Positions 354 to 14,450 of a stretch of DNA of 49,069 nucleotides are shown here, piece by piece. Position 1 is the stretch's first letter. Each line of letters starts with the position of its first letter. The notes below the pieces were generated by a model. The model was not told the origin of the DNA. It was given only the letters and a program-made list of their open reading frames with translations, and made no database searches. The stretch is from Rubrivivax sp. (GTDB lineage Bacteria; Pseudomonadota; Gammaproteobacteria; Burkholderiales; Burkholderiaceae_C): assembly GCA_016788525.1 (NCBI GenBank), contig JAEUPD010000160.1:1-49069 (forward strand), in the 5' to 3' direction. A program made the position numbers and the translations under genes.

Positions 354-369
354 TTTGCGCCACGTTTAC
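354..369 (+). promoter_or_regulatory. Direct repeat TTTGC-N6-TTTAC, candidate response-regulator site
   Basis: TTTGC (354-358) and TTTAC (365-369) are spaced 11 bp start to start, the spacing used by OmpR/PhoB-family regulators that bind one helical face as tandem dimers. The block is preceded by GGCGGCAG at 344-351. The same arrangement recurs at 3116-3140 ahead of the TRAP permease genes. The site lies just before the EIIA-like gene, so autoregulation by the KdpE-type protein is a reasonable inference. No binding data support it. Confidence 0.4.
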
Positions 370-392
370 GCGGGCCCGGATCCAATGGCGCC

Positions 393-890
393 ATGGTCGC
401 CGTCGAGATGTCCGCTGTGCCCGCGCGACCCGCGCCTTCGATCCGTGTGGTCCGTGTGGAGCTTGCCGTCGAGGCGCCGCACGCGGTGCTCGGCCTGCTG
501 GCGGGCCTGCTGGTGCCCAAGGAGCCCCAGCAGGCCGAACTGCTGCGCCGGCGCTTCGAGCGGGCCCGCGAACGCCGCTCGGTGGTCGCCGGGCAGGGGG
601 TGCTGCTGGTCCGCTCGTCGCTGGCCCACCTGTCGTCGCCGCGGGTGGCCTATGCCCGGCTGCGGCGGCCCATGGGCATCCGCAGCCCCGACGGCGCGCC
701 GGTGACGGATGTGCTGGCACTCGTCGTGCCCCAGCCGACCCTGAGTGCCGAGCACGAGATGCTCACCGCGCTGGAGCGCTGGCTGCGCCTGCCGGCGGCA
801 CCGTCCCGGCTGAGGGCGTGCGACGGCGAGGATCAACTCCGCGACCTGCTGATCGAGGCCACCTGCGCTCTTGCGCCATGGGCCCCGTGA
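393..890 (+). CDS. EIIA-Ntr (PtsN)-like protein with the active-site His replaced
   Basis: A 165-residue protein that follows the PTS EIIA type-2 fold order: a helical N-terminal part with a LLRRRFERARERRS segment, then the active-site strand, then PDGAPVTDVLALVVP, an AEHEMLTALERWLRL helix and a final LRDLLIEA helix. PtsN proteins have GNGxAIPHxxL at the phosphorylation site. Here the equivalent is GQGVLLVRSSL at about residues 67-77, so the phosphorylatable His is Arg74. It should not be phosphorylated by HPr/NPr. It overlaps the kinase gene by 13 bases. In E. coli, unphosphorylated PtsN is known to bind KdpD and raise its activity; a dedicated, permanently unphosphorylated partner of the neighbouring kinase is my inference. 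The start could also be ATG 408; neither start has a strong ribosome-binding site. Confidence 0.65.
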   Translation: MVAVEMSAVPARPAPSIRVVRVELAVEAPHAVLGLLAGLLVPKEPQQAELLRRRFERARERRSVVAGQGVLLVRSSLAHLSSPRVAYARLRRPMGIRSPDGAPVTDVLALVVPQPTLSAEHEMLTALERWLRLPAAPSRLRACDGEDQLRDLLIEATCALAPWAP

Positions 891-2395
891 AAGAATCGGG
901 TGTGCCGATCCAGGCCCGAACGCCGGCTGCAGACCCGCCGCCCGTCGCGCAGGGAGCCCCCCTGCCGGAGGCCCATGCGGGGCCGGCGCGCGCGCCGCGC
1001 GACCGGGTCCTGGCCGCCCTGGTGCGCGCCAGCGCCGTGCTGGCCCTGTGCACCGCCACCGGCGAAGTGCTGGCGCCCTTTCTGGAGCCGGCCAACCTGA
1101 TCATGGTGTACCTGGCCGGCCTGGTGTACATCGCGCTGCGGCTGGGCCGCCCGGCCACGCTGTACGGCATTGCGGCCAGCCTGTTCCTGTTCGACCTGCT
1201 CTACGTGGCGCCGCGCTGGTCGCTGAAGCCCGCCGACCCGCAGTACTTCCTGACCTTCGCCGTGATGATCGTGGTGGGCCTGGTGATCGGGCACCTGGCC
1301 GACCGCTCCCGTGAACAGGCGCGCGCGGCCGAATCGCGGGCGGCGCGCAACCAGGCCCTCAACCGCATGGCGCTGCAACTGGCCAGTGCCGGCGACGCGG
1401 CCGGCATCGGGCGCGCGCTCGACGCCGCCGTCGCGCAGGCGCTGGGCGCCCGGGCGCGGCTGCTGGACACCATCCCGCCCCAGCCGGCGGGTGCCGATGC
1501 CCGGGTTCTGCCCTTGCCCGCCGGCCCGTCCAGGCCCGGGGCGGTGCGCGTCACCGGGCTGCGCGGCCAGCCCTTGCCGGCCGACGACGAGGAACTGCTG
1601 CGCGCGTTCGTGAACCAGGCCGCCATTGCCCTGGAGCGGGTGCGCTATGAACGGCTGTCGGCCGAATCCGCCATGACCGCCGACCGCGAGCGCCTGCGCA
1701 GCACCCTGCTGGCCGGCATCTCGCACGACTTCCGCACCCCGCTCACCACCATCATCGGGGCCACCAGCAGCCTGCTGGACCAGGACGCGGTGATCGACCC
1801 GGAACGCCGGCGCGCGCTGCTGCAGCAGGTGCTGGGCGAATCGGAGCGGCTGCACCAGCTGGTCAGCGACCTGCTCGACCTGACCCGGTTCGAGGCCGGC
1901 GCCGTGCGGCCCGACTGCGAGTGGTGCCCGCTGGACGAACTGGTGCAGGAGGCCTGGCGCGCGCTCGGCCCCGCCACCGAGCGGCACCGGCTGGGGCTGG
2001 ACGTTCCCGACGAACTGCCCCTGTGGTGCGACGCGCGCCTGATGGGGCAGGCCCTGGGCAACCTGCTGGGCAACGCCGTGAAGCACTCGCCCGCAGGCAG
2101 CGTGGTCACGGTGCGTGCGCGGCGCGGCCCCGAAGACGTGCTGCTGGCGGTCCACGACCAGGGCTCCGGGGTGGCCCGGGGCCACGAGCGCCGCGTGTTC
2201 GAGAAGTTCTTCCGTTCGGGCGACGCCGGTGGCCACCATGGCACGGGGCTGGGCCTGGCGATCTGCGCCGCGGTGGCCGAGCTGCACCAGGGCACGATCA
2301 GCGCGCGCAACGAGCAGGGCGCCTGCTTCGAGCTGCGGCTGCCGCAGCCCGCGCAGCCGCCGGGCGAGCTGGTCGACGAAGGCGGGGCTGCATGA
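878..2395 (+). CDS. KdpD-type sensor histidine kinase lacking the KdpD N-terminal half
   Basis: A 505-residue membrane histidine kinase. Order: a Pro/Ala-rich N-terminus (1-40), a DUF4118 membrane block of about four helices (45-150) with the typical NLIMVYLAGLVYIALRLGR and YFLTFAVMIVVGLVIGHLADR segments (each under 20 residues), a GAF-like region (about 165-255), then HisKA with LLAGISHDFRTPLTTI (phospho-His about residue 283) and HATPase_c with N box NLLGNAVKHS, DQGSG and GTGLGLAI. Full KdpD is about 900 residues and starts with KdpD sensor and USP domains; these are absent here, and the upstream frame instead encodes the EIIA-like protein. It overlaps the response-regulator gene by ATGA. 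No kdpFABC genes lie nearby, and the next genes encode a TRAP permease, so K+ sensing is doubtful. GTG 887 and GTG 902 are alternative starts. Confidence 0.85.
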   Translation: MGPVKESGVPIQARTPAADPPPVAQGAPLPEAHAGPARAPRDRVLAALVRASAVLALCTATGEVLAPFLEPANLIMVYLAGLVYIALRLGRPATLYGIAASLFLFDLLYVAPRWSLKPADPQYFLTFAVMIVVGLVIGHLADRSREQARAAESRAARNQALNRMALQLASAGDAAGIGRALDAAVAQALGARARLLDTIPPQPAGADARVLPLPAGPSRPGAVRVTGLRGQPLPADDEELLRAFVNQAAIALERVRYERLSAESAMTADRERLRSTLLAGISHDFRTPLTTIIGATSSLLDQDAVIDPERRRALLQQVLGESERLHQLVSDLLDLTRFEAGAVRPDCEWCPLDELVQEAWRALGPATERHRLGLDVPDELPLWCDARLMGQALGNLLGNAVKHSPAGSVVTVRARRGPEDVLLAVHDQGSGVARGHERRVFEKFFRSGDAGGHHGTGLGLAICAAVAELHQGTISARNEQGACFELRLPQPAQPPGELVDEGGAA

Positions 2396-3111
2396 CCGGG
2401 CCGCGCCCCCAGGTGCTGGTGGTGGAAGACGAAGCCGCCATCCGCCGCATGCTCGTCTCCACCCTCGAGCTCGAGGGCTACCAGGTGCAGCAGGCCTCGA
2501 CGGCCCGCGAAGGCGAGGCGCTCGCCGGCAACCGGCGCATCGACCTGTTCCTGATCGACCTCGGTCTGCCCGACCGCGACGGCATCGAGCTCATCCGCCG
2601 CCTGCGGGCCTGGACGCGCCGGCCGATCGTGGTGCTGTCGGCGCGCACCCACGAAAGCCAGAAGGTCGAGGCCCTGGACGTGGGGGCCGACGACTACGTC
2701 ACCAAGCCCTTCGGCGTGGCCGAGCTGCATGCGCGGCTGCGCGTGGCCCTGCGGCACGCGGCCCGCACCGCGGGCGCGGGCGAGACGGTGGTGCGCTTCG
2801 GTGGGGTGGCGGTCGACCTGGCGGCCCGCGCCGTCAGCCGCGACGGCGAGGCCATCCGCCTGACCGCCACGCAGTGGCGGTTGCTCGAGGTGCTGGCGCG
2901 GCACGCCGGGCGCGTGGTCACGGCCCATCAGCTGCTGCACGAGGTGTGGGGACCGGGCCACCGCGACCAGGGGCACTACCTGCGCATCTACGTGCGCCAG
3001 CTGCGGCAGCGGCTCGAGACCGACCCCTCGCGGCCGCAGCACCTCATCACCGAGACCGGGCTGGGCTACCGCCTGCTGGTCGACACACCGGACCACCCGG
3101 GCCCGGCCTGA
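2392..3111 (+). CDS. KdpE-type OmpR-family response regulator
   Basis: A 239-residue regulator. The receiver domain (7-120) has the acidic pair VVEDE, phospho-acceptor Asp56 in LFLIDLGLPDRDG, the VLSARTH switch and Lys in DDYVTKPFG. A C-terminal winged helix (about 135-232) has RLTATQWRLLEVLARHAG and ends in ETGLGYRLL, as in OmpR/KdpE proteins. It is translationally coupled to the kinase (ATGA overlap) and is its evident partner. The 81-base gap to the TRAP gene dctQ holds an 11-bp-spaced TTTAC repeat, and a similar repeat precedes the first gene of its own operon. Control of the adjacent transporter is inferred from these sites and from synteny. Confidence 0.9.
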   Translation: MTGPRPQVLVVEDEAAIRRMLVSTLELEGYQVQQASTAREGEALAGNRRIDLFLIDLGLPDRDGIELIRRLRAWTRRPIVVLSARTHESQKVEALDVGADDYVTKPFGVAELHARLRVALRHAARTAGAGETVVRFGGVAVDLAARAVSRDGEAIRLTATQWRLLEVLARHAGRVVTAHQLLHEVWGPGHRDQGHYLRIYVRQLRQRLETDPSRPQHLITETGLGYRLLVDTPDHPGPA

Positions 3112-3124
3112 AGCCGGCGGCAGT

Positions 3125-3140
3125 TTTACCTGCGGTTTAC
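3125..3140 (+). promoter_or_regulatory. Direct repeat TTTAC-N6-TTTAC before the TRAP permease genes
   Basis: TTTAC occurs at 3125-3129 and 3136-3140, 11 bp apart, preceded by GGCGGCAG at 3116-3123. A TAGGCT hexamer at 3152-3157 lies 11 bases after the second repeat, the geometry of PhoB-type activated promoters in which the tandem site replaces the -35 box. The block closely resembles 344-369. It is the best candidate for regulation of dctQM by the upstream two-component system. Confidence 0.45.
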
Positions 3141-3191
3141 GCCGCCGCTCCTAGGCTGAAGGGCGTTCCCCCGCCTTTCACGGAGCCCCCG

Positions 3192-3727
3192 ATGCAGCTG
3201 CTGCTGATGCTCAGCCGATGGGTCGATGCCCTCAACGACCGCTTCGCGCGCCTGGCCGAATGGGCCGTGCTGGCGGCCTGCCTCATCAGCGCCGGCAATG
3301 CCTTCGTGCGCTATGGCCTGAGCATCAGCTCGAACGCCTTCCTCGAGATCCAGTGGTACCTGTTCGCCGCCTGCGTGATGCTGGGCGCGGCGCAGGTGCT
3401 GCGCGTCAACGAGCACGTGCGCGTCGACGTGCTGTACGGCCTGTATCCCACGCGGCTGAAGGTCTTCGTCGACCTGATGGGGCTGCTGCTGTTCCTGATC
3501 CCGGTGATGGTGCTGAGCGTGGTGCTGTCCTGGCCGCTCTTCGTGAACATGTTCGTCAGCGGCGAGATGTCCAGCCAGGCCGGCGGCCTGGTGCGCTGGC
3601 CCGCGATGCTGCTGCTGCCCCTGGGCATGGGCCTGCTGGTGCTGCAGGCCGTGGCCGAGGTGATCAAGCGGGTGGGCTGGCTGATGCGCCTGCACGAGAT
3701 GGACACGCACTACGAGAGGCCGCTGCA

Positions 3728-3731
<4 letters not shown>
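3192..3731 (+). CDS. TRAP transporter small permease (DctQ family)
   Basis: A 179-residue inner-membrane protein with four predicted helices (about 20-45, 52-75, 95-125, 138-160) and the family features of a polar N-terminus, an EIQWYLFAACVMLGAAQVLR helix and NEHVRVDVLY. DctQ supports the large permease DctM in sodium- or proton-driven uptake of organic acids delivered by a periplasmic binding protein. Its stop overlaps the start of dctM (ATGA), so the two are co-translated. No dctP gene adjoins this pair. Upstream lies a candidate response-regulator site and a two-component operon on the same strand. Confidence 0.88.
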
Positions 3732-5224
<1,493 letters not shown>

Positions 5225-5242
5225 GCGGGGCCGGCTGTCGGA

Positions 5243-6544
5243 TCAGCTGCGCATCTGCGCCGGCAGGAAGCTCACGATCTGCGGGAACACGTAGATCAGG
5301 CCCACCGCCAGCACCATCAGCCAGAAGAAGGGCATGGTCACGCGGGCGATCCAGCCGATCTCGCGGCGGGTCATGCCCTGCAGCACGAAGAGGTTGAAGC
5401 CCACCGGCGGCGTGATCTGCGCCATCTCGACCACCAGCACGACGAAGATGCCGAACCACAGCGGGTCGATGCCGGCTTTCTGGATGGTGGGCAGGATCAC
5501 GCCCATCGTCAGCACCACCATGCTGATGCCGTCGAGAAAGCAGCCCAGCAGGATGTAGAACAAGGCCAGCGCCGCCAGCAGTTGCCATTGCGTGAGGCCC
5601 AGCGTGGCGATCCACTCCGCCAGGTGCCGCGGCAGGCCGATGTAGCCCATGCTCAGCGTGAGGAACGCGGCGCCCGCCAGGATGAGCGCGATCATGCAGT
5701 ACAGCCGCGTGCCGCCCAGCAGGCTGTCCTTGAAGGTCTGCCAGGTGAGCGAGCCCTGCGCACCCGAGATCGCCAGCGCCCCCACCACGCCGATGGCGGC
5801 GGCTTCGGTGGCCGTGGCGATGCCGCCGTAGATGCTGCCCAGCACCGCGACGATGAGCGCGATGACCGGGATCAGGTGGCGCGACTCCTTCAGCTTGGCG
5901 CCCAGGCTCAGCCGTGCATCGGCCGGTGGCACGAGCTGCGGGTTGCGCAGCGCCCACACCACCAGGTAGCCCGAGAACAGCAGTGCCAGCATCACGCCGG
6001 GAAGCACGCCGGCGATGAACAGCTGCGCGATCGACACCTCGGCGGTGACGCCGTAGACGATCATGATGATCGACGGCGGGATCAGCAGGCCCAGCGTGCC
6101 GGCGCCGGCCAGGCTGCCGATGCTGATGCCCTCGGGGTAGCCGCGGCGCTTCAGCTCGAGCAGGCTCATCTTGCCGATGGTGGCGCAGGTGGCCGCGCTG
6201 CTGCCGCTGACCGCGGCGAAGATGGCGCAGCCGGCGACGTTGACGTGCAAGAGCCGCCCGGGCAGCGCCTGCATCCACGGCGCCAGGCCGCGGAACATGT
6301 CCTGGCTGAGCCGGGTGCGGAACAGGATCTCGCCCATCCACACGAACAGCGGCAGCGCGGTCAGTGTCCAGCTGCTGGCGCTGCCCCAGATGGTGACGGC
6401 CATCGCGTCGCCGGCCGGGCGGCTGCTGAACAGCTGCATGCCGATCCACGCCACGCCCGACAGCGTGAGGCCGATCCACACCCCGCTGCCCAGGATGACG
6501 AACAGCGCCGCGACCAGCAGGAGGGTGATGCCGATGTCGCCCAT
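5243..6544 (-). CDS. dctM: TRAP transporter large permease (DctM)
   Basis: A 433-residue DctM-family permease, typical length. Visible family blocks: GSGVWIGLTLSGVAWIGM at the N-terminus, LPLFVWMGEIL, VSGSSAATCATIGKM, AGTLGLLIPPSIIMIVYG, TATEAAAIGVVGAL and the C-terminal EMAQITPPVGFNLFVLQG. It is the last gene of the leftward dctP-dctQ-dctM operon, 67 bases after dctQ. With DctP and DctQ it would form a complete TRAP system. The shared control region with the racemase/porin/oxoprolinase operon suggests the substrate is the compound processed there. Confidence 0.92.
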   Translation of the reverse strand: MGDIGITLLLVAALFVILGSGVWIGLTLSGVAWIGMQLFSSRPAGDAMAVTIWGSASSWTLTALPLFVWMGEILFRTRLSQDMFRGLAPWMQALPGRLLHVNVAGCAIFAAVSGSSAATCATIGKMSLLELKRRGYPEGISIGSLAGAGTLGLLIPPSIIMIVYGVTAEVSIAQLFIAGVLPGVMLALLFSGYLVVWALRNPQLVPPADARLSLGAKLKESRHLIPVIALIVAVLGSIYGGIATATEAAAIGVVGALAISGAQGSLTWQTFKDSLLGGTRLYCMIALILAGAAFLTLSMGYIGLPRHLAEWIATLGLTQWQLLAALALFYILLGCFLDGISMVVLTMGVILPTIQKAGIDPLWFGIFVVLVVEMAQITPPVGFNLFVLQGMTRREIGWIARVTMPFFWLMVLAVGLIYVFPQIVSFLPAQMRS

Positions 6545-6611
6545 GGGGGGCCCGCTCGAGTGGATGTTGTTGTGGCCGCAGTGGCAGCGGTATGAGTGCC
6601 GACGGCGGGGG

Positions 6612-7121
6612 CTACTCGTTGTGGGCGGCTTCCTCGCCGCCGGCCACCACGCGCCGGCCGCGCACTTCGAGCACCAGCTCGTCGACGAACGCCACCAGCA
6701 GGATCAGCGTGCCCACGGCCATCGCCAGCTGCGGCATCCACAGCGGCGTGGCGTCGTTGCCGGTGGAGATGTCGTTGAACTTGTGGCTGTGCCAGGCCAG
6801 GCGCACGCTGTAGAACGCTGCCAGCGCGGCCAGCAGCACCGCGGCGAACAACGCCCAGATCTCCAGCCCGCGTCGCGCCGCGCCCTTCAGCGCCGACAGC
6901 AGCAGCGTCACGCGGATGTGCTCGTTGCGCTTGAGCGTGTGTGCCAGCGCCAGGAAGCCGCTGGCGGCCATGAAGTAGCCGGCGTAGGCGTCGGTGCCCG
7001 GCACGTGGAAGTGCGCCAGGCGGCTGACGATGGACAGCAGCACCATCGCCAGCAGGCCCACCATGAACAGCGCAGCCAGCCAGGCGGCGCCGTCGTACAG
7101 GCCGTCGAGCAGCTTGCGCAT
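6612..7121 (-). CDS. dctQ: TRAP transporter small permease (DctQ)
   Basis: A 169-residue inner-membrane protein with four hydrophobic segments. It carries the DctQ landmarks TDAYAGYFMAASGFLALAHT and KRNEHIRVTLLLSAL. It lies between dctP (99-base gap) and dctM (67-base gap) in a leftward operon. It is divergent in sequence from the DctQ at 3192, so the two TRAP systems are not a recent duplication. Confidence 0.88.
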   Translation of the reverse strand: MRKLLDGLYDGAAWLAALFMVGLLAMVLLSIVSRLAHFHVPGTDAYAGYFMAASGFLALAHTLKRNEHIRVTLLLSALKGAARRGLEIWALFAAVLLAALAAFYSVRLAWHSHKFNDISTGNDATPLWMPQLAMAVGTLILLVAFVDELVLEVRGRRVVAGGEEAAHNE

Positions 7122-7220
7122 GGCCGGTGGTGCAGGCGGGCGGGGGGCGTGCGGGCGCTGCCGGGCGGCGGGGCGCGTGCGGCACCCAGGCGGGCATGGG
7201 CCCGCGCCCGCCGCGCCCGG

Positions 7221-8201
7221 CTACTTCCTGAAGGCGTCGATCAGCGCCTTGCCCTCGGCGCCGGCCTTGTCGAGCCACTCCTTGAGCAGCGTGTCGCCGA
7301 CCTTCTTCATGTCGGTCTTCAGCTGGGCCGAAGGCGGCAGGATCTGCATGCCGCCGCCCTTGAGCTTGTCCAGGCTCTCGGTGTTGGCCCTCTTGCTGGC
7401 GGCCAGGCCGCGCACCTCGGCGTCGGCGGCGGCCTTCATCACCGCGGCCTTGGTGGCGCCGTCCAGCGCATCGAATGCGGCCTTGTTGACGATGACGGCG
7501 TTCTTGGGCAGCCAGGCCTGCGTGTCGTACCAGTACTTGACGTGCTCGTGCAGCTTGGCGTCCCAGCCGGTGGAGCCGCTGCTCATCATGCTTTCGGCCA
7601 CGCCGGTGGCGAAGGCCTGGCTCACCTCGGCGGCCTGCACGGTGACCGGCTGCGCGCCCACCAGTTCGGCGATGCGGCTGGTGGCCGGGCTGTAGGCGCG
7701 CCACTTCATGCCCTTCAGGTCAGCCGCGCTTTGCAGCGGCTTCTTGCTGTAGATGCCCTGCGGCGGCCACGGCACTGCGTACAGCACCATCATCCCCTGC
7801 TCGGCGAGCTTCTTGTCCAAGAGCGGCTTCTGCACCTTCCACAGCTTGACGCTCTCGTCGTAGCTGTCGGCCAGGAACGGCAGGCCGTCGGCACCGAAGA
7901 TCTGCCACTCGTTCTGGAAGTTCACGAGCAGGATCTCGCCGATCTGCGCCTGGCCGCCTTGCACCGCGCGCTTGATCTCGGGCGCCTTGAACAGCGAGGC
8001 ACCAGGGTGCACGGTGATCTTGAGCTTGCCGCCGGTGGCCTTGTCGACATCGTTGGCGAACTCGACCAGGTTCACCGAGTGGAAGTTGGTGGCCGGGTAG
8101 GCGGCGGGCAGGTCCCATTTGACCTGGGCCTGGGCGGCGGCGCCGGCAAGGCCGAGCGCGGCGAGGGCGAGCAGCGGGCGGAGGAAGGGCTTGGTGAACA
8201 T
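7221..8201 (-). CDS. dctP: TRAP transporter substrate-binding protein (DctP)
   Basis: A 326-residue periplasmic binding protein. A signal peptide (1-26, cleavage after AAAQAQ) is followed by VKWDLPAAYPATNFHS, then TGGKLKITVHPGASLFKAPEIKR split over residues 60-82, and the hallmark KGMKWRAYSPATS with the Arg that usually ion-pairs a carboxylate of the ligand. This implies a carboxylate-bearing substrate. An AGGAG ribosome-binding site fixes ATG 8201. A longer open frame extends to 8630 but would lack the signal peptide at its N-terminus and run through the regulator gene. The promoter lies at 8314-8343 with an operator-like palindrome across it. Confidence 0.93.
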   Translation of the reverse strand: MFTKPFLRPLLALAALGLAGAAAQAQVKWDLPAAYPATNFHSVNLVEFANDVDKATGGKLKITVHPGASLFKAPEIKRAVQGGQAQIGEILLVNFQNEWQIFGADGLPFLADSYDESVKLWKVQKPLLDKKLAEQGMMVLYAVPWPPQGIYSKKPLQSAADLKGMKWRAYSPATSRIAELVGAQPVTVQAAEVSQAFATGVAESMMSSGSTGWDAKLHEHVKYWYDTQAWLPKNAVIVNKAAFDALDGATKAAVMKAAADAEVRGLAASKRANTESLDKLKGGGMQILPPSAQLKTDMKKVGDTLLKEWLDKAGAEGKALIDAFRK

Positions 8202-8309
8202 GGGCACTCCTGGTGTCCAAGGGTGGAAGGGAGCCACGGCAACGCGGCCGGCGCCGGCAAGGATGACGGCCTGCGCCGGCGCCTCCATCGGGGTTTGCCA
8301 GAGGCTGAG

Positions 8310-8913: not shown

Positions 8914-9626
8914 CCGCGGCACCTCTCGATGGTCTGCCGCAGCGCGCCGGCGGCGGCACCCAGGCCGGGCGGGCGCCACGGTCCGCGGGCTTCCTCGGCA
9001 TGCTGATGCTCGACACGCGCTTTCCGCGGCCGCCCGGCGACGCGGGCCATCCCGCCAGCTGGCGCTTGCCGATTCGCTTCGCCGTCGTGGCCGGGGCCTC
9101 CCCGCGGCGTGTCGTGCAGCAGGCCGATGCCACGCTGCTGGCGCCGTTCGTCGCCGCCGCGCGCAGCCTGGTGGCCGAAGGTGCGGCCGCCATCACCACG
9201 AGTTGCGGTTTCCTCGTGCGCTGGCAGCGCGAATTGCAGGCCGCCCTTCCGGTGCCGGTGTGGAGCTCGAGCCTGCTGCTGTTGCCGACGCTGCCGCGGC
9301 CCGGCGTGGTCACGGCTGACGCCGCCAGCCTGGGTGCCGCCGAACTGGCCGCGGCCGGCGCCGACCCGGCGACGCCGGTCGAGGGCCTGGCCGGCGGGTC
9401 GCACCTGCAGGACACCCTGCTGCACGACCGCCCGACGCTCGACTTGTGGCAGGCCGAGGCCGACGCAGTGGCCGCCGCGAAATGCCTGGTCGCGCGCTGC
9501 CCGCAGGTCACCTCGATCGTGCTCGAGTGCACCAATCTCCCGCCGTACGCCGCCGCCATCGAGCAGGCGACGGGGCGACCGGTGCATCACCTGATGACCC
9601 TGGTGCACCGGCTATGGGGTGCATGA
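8910..9626 (+). CDS. Aspartate/glutamate racemase-family protein
   Basis: A 238-residue cytosolic protein starting at GTG 8910, which overlaps the regulator's stop (GTGA). The two cysteine motifs of the Asp/Glu/hydantoin racemase superfamily are present: AAITTSCGFLVRWQ (about residue 96) and SIVLECTNLPPYAAAIE (about residue 211). Such proteins racemise amino acids or hydantoins by a two-base thiol mechanism without cofactor. Next to a fused oxoprolinase/hydantoinase, the likely role is to convert the stereoisomer of a cyclic amide or of its amino-acid product. The exact substrate cannot be read from the sequence. Confidence 0.8.
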   Translation: MTAAPLDGLPQRAGGGTQAGRAPRSAGFLGMLMLDTRFPRPPGDAGHPASWRLPIRFAVVAGASPRRVVQQADATLLAPFVAAARSLVAEGAAAITTSCGFLVRWQRELQAALPVPVWSSSLLLLPTLPRPGVVTADAASLGAAELAAAGADPATPVEGLAGGSHLQDTLLHDRPTLDLWQAEADAVAAAKCLVARCPQVTSIVLECTNLPPYAAAIEQATGRPVHHLMTLVHRLWGA

Positions 9627-9669
9627 TCGCGGCCCTTCCCATTGCCAACGGGTCCCATCGGAGGAATCA

Positions 9670-10791
9670 GTGCCTGGTCTGCGCCAACTCACAATCGCAC
9701 TCGCCGCCTGCGGCATCGCCTGGCCGGCGGCCGCGCAAGGCATCACCTTGTTCGGCCTGCTCGACGCCGGCATCGAGGTGCTCGACAACGTCGGGCCTGG
9801 CGGCAGCCGCCTCGTGCGCATGCCCTCGCTGACAGGCACGGTCTCCTCGCGCCTGGGCGTGCGTATGCAGGAGGACCTCGGCGGCGGCCTCTCGGCGCAG
9901 GCCGTGCTGGAGATGGGACTCGCGCCTGACCAGGGCACGATGCTGCAAGGCGGGCGCGCGTGGGGCCGGCAGTCCTGGGTCGGCCTGCAGACGCCGCTGG
10001 GCCTGTTCAGCGCCGGGCGCCAGTACACGATGCTGTTCTGGAGCGTGCTCGAGGCCGACATCCTCGGCCCCAACCTGTTCGGCACCGGCTCGCTGGACGC
10101 GGGCATTCCGAATGCGCGCAGCGACAACACGCTGGCGTGGCGGCATGGCTTCAGCGGCTGGACGCTTGGTGCCACCTGGAGCTTGGGCCGCGACGTGGCG
10201 AATGCCGGTCCCAGCCCTTCGGGCACCAACTGCGCCGGCGAGAGCGCCACCGACAGCCGCGCCTGCCGGGCCTGGTCGGCGATGGTCAAGCTTGACCGCC
10301 CGCGCTGGGGTTTCGCGATCGCCGACGACCGCCAGCACGGGCGCGAGGTCGGTCCGGCGCCCGACGCCGTGTTCGGTGGCCTGGACAGCAGCGCCAAGGT
10401 AGATCGTCGGCTGTCGGTGAACGGCTACCTGAAGTGGGGCGAGGTCAAGCTCGGCGGCGGCGTCATCGACCGCCGCAACGACGGCGATGCGGTCAAGCCC
10501 GACCGTCGCCTGTGGTACTTCGGCGCGGCGTGGCCCGTGATGCCGCAGCTGACCATCGACGGCGCCTGGATGACCTTGCGCCACGCGAACGTCGATGGCC
10601 ATGACGCCACCCTGGTGGCATTGCGCGGCCTGTACAGCTTTTCCCGGCGCACGGCGGTCTACGCGCAGCTCGGGCGCATCTCGAACGAACGCTTGTCGGC
10701 GCTGTCGGTGAGCGCCGGCGCCGCGGGCAGCAACCCGGCGCCGGGCCAGGCGCAGAACGCGGTGAACGCCGGGTTGCGGCACAGCTTCTGA
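9670..10791 (+). CDS. Outer-membrane porin (Gram-negative Porin_4 type)
   Basis: A 373-residue outer-membrane protein. A signal peptide (1-23, ending WPAAAQG) precedes [13 protein letters not shown], the usual first strand of betaproteobacterial trimeric porins. [40 protein letters not shown] and the C-terminal [10 protein letters not shown] with terminal Phe are typical porin signatures. The start is GTG 9670, preceded by GGAGG at 7 bases; a longer frame from 9619 has no signal peptide at its N-terminus. It lies between the racemase and oxoprolinase genes in one orientation, so it probably admits the substrate of the pathway. Confidence 0.88.
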
Positions 10792-10817
10792 GCGTGAGCG
10801 AACGAGTGGGAGGCAGC

Positions 10818-14450
<3,633 letters not shown>

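Follow-up and report, generated by a model that had tools for sequence, protein, structure and literature searches.

Introduction

In Escherichia coli, Rhizobium leguminosarum and Sinorhizobium fredii, the EIIA-Ntr protein PtsN is coupled to the sensor kinase KdpD, the response regulator KdpE and kdpFABC (PMC3264566, PMC9239096, PMC8534201, PMC13104625; these and the other papers are cited here for single passages). This study concerns a related system in Rubrivivax sp., on a contig of 49,069 bases (JAEUPD010000160.1 of assembly GCA_016788525.1, our contig C227), which is called the window throughout and belongs to an assembly of 4.43 Mb and 73% completeness. It consists of genes for an EIIA-Ntr-like protein, a short KdpD-type histidine kinase and a KdpE-type regulator (EIIA-KdpD'-KdpE'), followed by the dctQM genes of a TRAP transporter.

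According to the passages cited, PtsN docks onto the HisKA (DHp) domain of KdpD in E. coli and onto a GAF domain in S. fredii (PMC8534201, PMC9239096). The S. fredii variant PtsN1(H66A) binds KdpD, more weakly, and H66E does not (PMC9239096), which makes it plausible that an EIIA without the histidine could still bind its kinase. As the phosphorylated form acts in Pseudomonas putida (review PMC13104625), the direction of the EIIA effect is not to be assumed. That an EIIA gene can lie within a kdpDE cluster has been described before: rhizobia have ptsN2, a second EIIA-Ntr gene in such a position and the closest precedent (PMC13104625). This precedent shares with our locus the physical linkage between an EIIA-Ntr gene and kdpDE, whereas all three S. 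fredii PtsN proteins keep the phospho-histidine and their system acts on kdpFABC (PMC9239096). Among the matches listed in the open-licence PMC literature, neither an EIIA-KdpDE-TRAP operon nor an EIIA-Ntr lacking the histidine was described in a title or abstract.

The locus has in common with the PtsN-KdpD-KdpE-kdpFABC system the EIIA-Ntr fold, a KdpD-type core with HisKA and a KdpE-type regulator, and many kinases of its subfamily also match GAF, the docking domain of S. fredii. It differs in that the EIIA is encoded within the operon and is distinct from the housekeeping PtsN, the KdpD N-terminal domain is missing (the window kinase is also without a Usp-like part), the apparent target is a TRAP or major facilitator superfamily (MFS) transporter instead of kdpFABC, and the phospho-histidine is replaced in four of 13 EIIAs. 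Judging from sequence comparison, we consider it reasonably probable that EIIA-KdpD'-KdpE' is an autoregulated two-component circuit controlling the adjacent TRAP transporter, with EIIA as a resident partner of the kinase that is locked in the window strain.

Results

Organization of the operon and its relatives

The genes lie on the forward strand and overlap one another: the EIIA-like protein (165 residues; identified by Pfam, profile and AlphaFold2) occupies 393–890, the kinase (505 residues from ATG 878; Pfam, NCBIfam and subfamily tree) 878–2395, and the regulator of the OmpR/PhoB family (Pfam, NCBIfam and a PDB KdpE match) 2392–3111. The TRAP genes come next, with the small permease DctQ at 3192–3731 (PF04290, 9.7e-19) and the large permease DctM at 3728–5224 (PF06808, 5e-85; TIGR00786, 1e-84), both on the same strand. 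An in-frame GTG of the kinase at 887 shares GTGA with the EIIA stop, and the regulator start and the kinase stop form an ATGA overlap. The codon CGC at 612–614 places Arg74 at the phospho-histidine position, in agreement with a sequence-only reading of this DNA, which had described three overlapping genes and this replacement. The preceding residue is altered too (LLVR in the window, e.g., IALPH in histidine-bearing relatives), and an assembly error or one-base error behind Arg74 was ruled out because neighbouring positions differ as well.

Using the sensor domain as a query, ten of 399 genomes of the window's family scored above 90 bits; below this score, the matches were mostly frames of about 900 residues, the size of canonical KdpD. 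Among 81 genomes of the window's genus, at least 90 bits were reached only by the window genome and G004. In 84,980 species genomes, 17 loci were found, 15 of them in the subfamily, and the window and two further loci brought the subfamily to 18, with genomes met twice counted once. Loci L100 (Planctomycetota) and L101 (Chloroflexota) lay outside the branch on the tree and were left out, and G093 (92.5 bits) is absent from the tree as no kinase frame was recovered. The 18 kinases form one branch (support 100/100) apart from canonical KdpD. All subfamily loci belong to Burkholderiales, the named genera being Hydrogenophaga, Curvibacter, Hylemonella, Polaromonas, Ramlibacter, Methylibium and Rubrivivax. 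An EIIA gene adjoins the kinase gene in 13 of the 18 loci, upstream and in the same orientation, as in the window, in 12 of them, and divergent in one (Ramlibacter terrae, L087); this recurrence supports the link between the three genes noted in the sequence-only reading.

Operators and transporter targets

The repeat TTTAC-N6-TTTAC, with an 11-nt period and at most one mismatch, occurs at only two sites in the 49-kb window, both strands counted, and in none of 20 shuffles of it. The putative operator 1 (TTTGC-N6-TTTACG, 354–370, forward strand) stands upstream of the EIIA-kinase-regulator operon, and the putative operator 2 (TTTACC-TGCGG-TTTACG, 3125–3141, forward strand) lies 67 bases before dctQ and is the only exact TTTACN6TTTACG in the 4.43-Mb assembly. 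The E. coli KdpE operator TTTATA-N5-TTTACA is a direct repeat of the same 11-nt period, according to the passage cited (PMC3264566).

The repeat was found 67–143 bases before dctQ in all 12 linked loci, ten times exactly, against 0.023 expected at up to one mismatch, and in six genomes all seven exact TTTACN6TTTACG matches fall within the EIIA-KdpD'-KdpE' cluster. The 30 best-matching dctQ loci of the family fall into five beside the regulator, all with an exact site, and 25 without it, all with at least three mismatches. These 25 loci share DctQ at 60–72% identity, and DctM in most of those checked, with the regulated loci, but have neither a KdpE-type box nor EIIA-KdpDE upstream.

A site precedes a transporter gene in 15 of the 18 loci. 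The exceptions are L093, where the stretch ends too early, L075, with a peptidase gene downstream, and L087, where the site stands before the divergent EIIA gene. Behind some sites there are other transporters: a divergent TRAP (L086), an MFS gene (L071/L092 and L074) or two TRAPs (L098). In L098, the stretch from the regulator gene to the customary dctQ is occupied by another TRAP set (4504–7295), which has an exact TTTAC repeat of its own, and the regulator of this locus seems, from these sites, to have two transporter targets.

In eight loci, the upstream stretches were inspected for a DctP beside dctQM, a possible clue to the substrate, and none was seen. TRAP systems carry organic solutes, and we infer that the compound carried by dctQM is one of these. 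A small protein of 147–162 residues with hydrophobic stretches follows dctM in L068 (8210–8650), L070 (219–704) and L072 (199–666), and is missing in the window.

Relation to canonical Kdp

The kdpFABC promoters of five genomes (L202–L206) carry a different repeat, CTTGA-N6-CTTGA, in five of five cases at up to one mismatch and in four exactly, a count made with no shuffle control; they contain no TTTAC repeat with fewer than two mismatches. The CTTGA pair, also with an 11-nt period, is doubled in some of these promoters and is unlike the E. coli TTTAYA half-sites. The proposal that the system serves a target other than kdpFABC is in line with the operators before dctQM or other transporters and with the CTTGA box at kdpFABC. 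As to potassium uptake genes, KdpA was not found in the window genome (73% complete) or in G004 (79% complete), nor kdpA in G204, G650 and G077 (94–100% complete).

In Methylibium rhizosphaerae (L071/L092/L205, contig NZ_SWAR01000037.1), EIIA-KdpD'-KdpE' is convergent to and adjoins the canonical kdpDE and kdpFABC, and this vicinity suggests that the three-gene unit arose by duplication at the kdp locus. Two short KdpDE-like pairs (L076 and L077, in G093 and G583) stand beside a gene that by eye resembles the Kup K+ transporter.

Properties of the three proteins

A profile of 11 operon EIIAs matched four solved PtsN proteins at 2.9e-28 (PDB 4gqx, the best) to 1.2e-17, and the PtsN of the window genome aligned with the operon EIIA in hhalign at E 3e-17 over 144 columns. 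Ten of the 11 family EIIAs gave a PF00359 match with an E of 1 or lower, the best being 1.7e-19. The AlphaFold2 model of the window EIIA has a mean pLDDT (predicted local distance difference test) of 85.7 and a pTM (predicted template modelling score) of 0.79; its best Foldseek match in the PDB is PtsN 3urr (E 2.1e-10, TM 0.68/0.73), and its neighbours there are the PtsN structures 3urr, 4gqx, 2a0j and 1a6j. The AlphaFold2 input alignment contained histidine-bearing relatives, so the fold and the homology are not independent evidence. The product of 393–890 is thus predicted to have the EIIA-Ntr fold, and its claimed likeness to EIIA-Ntr holds in both profile and model.

The window kinase comprises DUF4118 (about 1028–1339), HisKA (about 1697–1900) and HATPase_c (about 2030–2350). 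Its best NCBIfam match corresponds to KdpD positions 597–886 of 895, and its score of 278.6 bits against the KdpD equivalog model lies far below the cut-off of 1123. In the 11 subfamily kinases scanned, window included, Pfam found neither the KdpD N-terminal domain (PF02702) nor Usp (PF00582), while HisKA is kept in all 11; a GAF match at E up to 0.01 is present in seven of ten relatives' kinases and absent from the window kinase. The sequence-only reading was right that the kinase lacks the N-terminal half of KdpD, but the kinase was not pared down from KdpD in the window's own lineage, as none of the 11 kinases has this domain.

By tblastn, an N-terminal extension is present in ten loci (L088, L091, L092, L093, L094, L095, L096, L097, L098 and L102); in the window, L075, L086, L089, L090 and L099, there is no match or the kinase is too short. 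In M. rhizosphaerae, the extension matches the region that precedes DUF4118 in the canonical KdpD of the same genome (33% over 88 residues). We call it Usp-like, a label that comes from the KdpD literature. This pattern suggests that the Usp-like extension was gained or lost repeatedly among subfamily kinases. A still shorter kinase, 375 residues from the first start, was observed in Hydrogenophaga sp. IBVHS2 (L099), where DUF4118 is joined almost directly to HisKA and the EIIA bears the histidine.

The window regulator matches the PDB KdpE structure 4kny at 1.6e-75, which bears out its description as KdpE-type; against the KdpE equivalog model, it scores 277 bits, below the cut-off of 325. 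The equivalents of R193, R200 and T215 of E. coli KdpE, given as important for DNA binding in the passage cited (PMC3264566), are identical in the alignment. Of the 18 subfamily regulators, 17 have a Gly-to-Arg replacement in the recognition helix, which none of the three distinct canonical KdpE recovered shares. The replacement was considered as the cause of the difference between TTTAC and CTTGA and is insufficient, because E. coli KdpE has the glycine and yet uses TTTAYA half-sites.

State of the histidine and constraint on the EIIAs

At the histidine position, asparagine is found in three of the 13 EIIAs (L093, L095 and L102) and arginine in the window alone. The EIIA tree requires two losses of the histidine, one giving Asn and the other Arg; the kinase tree requires at least seven changes among the states His, Asn, Arg and none. 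The operon EIIAs are split from the housekeeping PtsN on the EIIA tree (support 100/99), which included nine of 11 housekeeping PtsN (those of L127 and L134 were missed). The phosphorylatable EIIA is probably ancestral, and its histidine was probably lost at least twice. Enzyme I was found in nine of ten genomes examined, the exception being G004 (79% complete), and canonical PtsN in all ten, window's included. These data indicate that the loss of the histidine is specific to the operon EIIA, because the phosphotransferase system (PTS) relay is still in the genomes.

The histidine-less EIIAs of the Asn clade are under purifying selection. Their omega (ratio of nonsynonymous to synonymous rates) is 0.21–0.24 at a synonymous divergence (dS) of 0.26–0.38, all proteins compared carrying Asn, and the synonymous excess is significant (p 3.8e-7 to 2.3e-9). 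In the same clade, the kinase has an omega of 0.15–0.23 and the regulator of about 0.035, lower than that of EIIA. The model of the Asn form again resembles EIIA-Ntr (pLDDT 84; 1a6j, E 9.7e-9, TM 0.79/0.83).

Discussion

We propose that the regulator would bind the TTTAC/TTTAC direct repeat (11-nt period) that precedes both its own operon and dctQM, and that it most likely acts as an activator of the two. EIIA is probably a resident partner bound to the kinase core, as unphosphorylated PtsN is to KdpD, a role suggested by homology. In the ancestral form, represented by nine relatives, EIIA has the histidine, and its phosphoenolpyruvate (PEP)-dependent phosphorylation could tune the kinase. In the window strain and in the Curvibacter/Hylemonella-type clade, where the histidine is gone, EIIA would be locked in one state, still a subunit and no longer a PTS input. 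As a tentative extension, which we rate as possible though short of probable, two lineages may independently have swapped the phospho-histidine for Asn or Arg and kept the dead EIIA as a constitutive subunit of the kinase, which would be uncoupled from PEP/PTS control but keep its transporter regulon. If this is true, an EIIA-fold protein would serve as a pseudo-phosphoacceptor subunit, comparable to pseudokinases.

Several results weigh against the proposed circuit. The histidine is kept in nine of the 13 EIIAs (L088, from the window's own genus, L090, L092, L094, L096, L097, L099, L075 and L087), so that the dedicated, non-phosphorylatable subunit postulated by the sequence-only reading describes the window copy and does not define the system; homologues in the same position that retain the histidine are exactly what would speak against that postulate. 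A full EIIA is missing from five of 18 loci, with a C-terminal fragment in L089 and L098 and nothing recognisable in L086, L091 and L074, so that the circuit can do without EIIA in some lineages, and the window EIIA may be on its way out too. Upstream of the kinase operon, the repeat is weaker than at dctQ, being found in eight of 16 loci at up to one mismatch (0.017 expected) and in 12 of 16 at up to two. The window site before EIIA has one mismatch and is close to the annotated start; as it ends merely 22 bases upstream of ATG 393, EIIA may start at ATG 408 or GTG 417 instead. Genome-wide, the one-mismatch repeat shows no excess over a reversed-pattern control in three of six genomes (G137, G700 and G650). 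Finally, the window EIIA alone reaches only 18.5 bits with PF00359 (E = 0.002, gathering cut-off 27), so its assignment to EIIA type 2 fails as a single sequence and succeeds through the family profile, and it has no close relative among the sequences compared, so that omega is not measurable for the Arg form.

These points lend themselves to another explanation, in which the window EIIA is a relic: the circuit would run without it, the histidine would have been freed from constraint first, with decay of the gene to follow, whereas the kinase, regulator and operators still work. The best support for this explanation is that EIIA has been lost so often in other loci; the many state changes on the kinase tree and the weak Pfam score add to it. 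Moreover, the four loci of 16 without a kinase-operon repeat are EIIA-less or fragment loci, i.e., four of the five, and L074, the remaining one, shows only a single site when one mismatch is allowed. We nevertheless regard a relic as rather unlikely, because the 165-codon frame is intact and overlaps the kinase start, its G+C by codon position (0.82/0.53/0.89; kinase, 0.80/0.52/0.93) is coding-like, the fold is predicted with confidence, the branch length of 1.72 resembles that of five histidine-bearing siblings (0.97–1.71, others shorter), and the Asn-clade EIIAs are constrained, although the coding-like G+C and the sibling-like branch are no proof of function for the Arg form.

A kinase-independent role, such as binding the TRAP permease or a metabolite, with co-expression as the only reason for the place in the operon, would suit the reported binding of PtsN to TrkA, YcgO and PhoR besides KdpD (PMC13104625, PMC8534201, PMC3665714, in the passages cited) and the shared operator type of EIIA and transporter. 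It appears improbable, since EIIA also accompanies the kinase without a dctQM target (L092, MFS; L075, no transporter found downstream). Least credible is the view of the regulator as just another homologue of KdpE, with TTTAC repeats that have no part in regulation and reflect promoter structure or base composition. It is true that regulators of the OmpR family recognise direct repeats of roughly one helical turn, which makes a repeat alone unspecific, and that one-mismatch matches are at control level in half of the genomes, but the strict coupling to the regulator (5/5 against 0/25), the placement before dctQ in every linked locus and the different repeat at kdpFABC of the same family make this explanation very hard to sustain.

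These loci offer a natural experiment on the reason for the contact between PtsN and KdpD-type kinases, since the same operon occurs with a phosphorylatable EIIA, a histidine-less EIIA or none. With one operator type and dctQM as a readable output, a comparison would tell apart what EIIA contributes by binding and what its phosphorylation contributes. The KdpDE paralogue would also be a case in which the operator diverged from the kdpFABC operator of the same family and control shifted to organic-solute transporters; in a small bacterial group, a sensor system of the potassium type seems to have become a switch for a nutrient transporter.

Neighbouring genes in the window

A second complete TRAP set, convergent to the first, lies on the reverse strand at 5246–8250 (DctM 5246–6544, DctQ 6615–7121 and DctP about 7224–8250) and is not preceded by a TTTAC repeat. 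Further downstream, on the forward strand at 9619–14450, a Gram-negative porin (9619–10791) is followed by a fused hydantoinase A+B/oxoprolinase (10794–14450).

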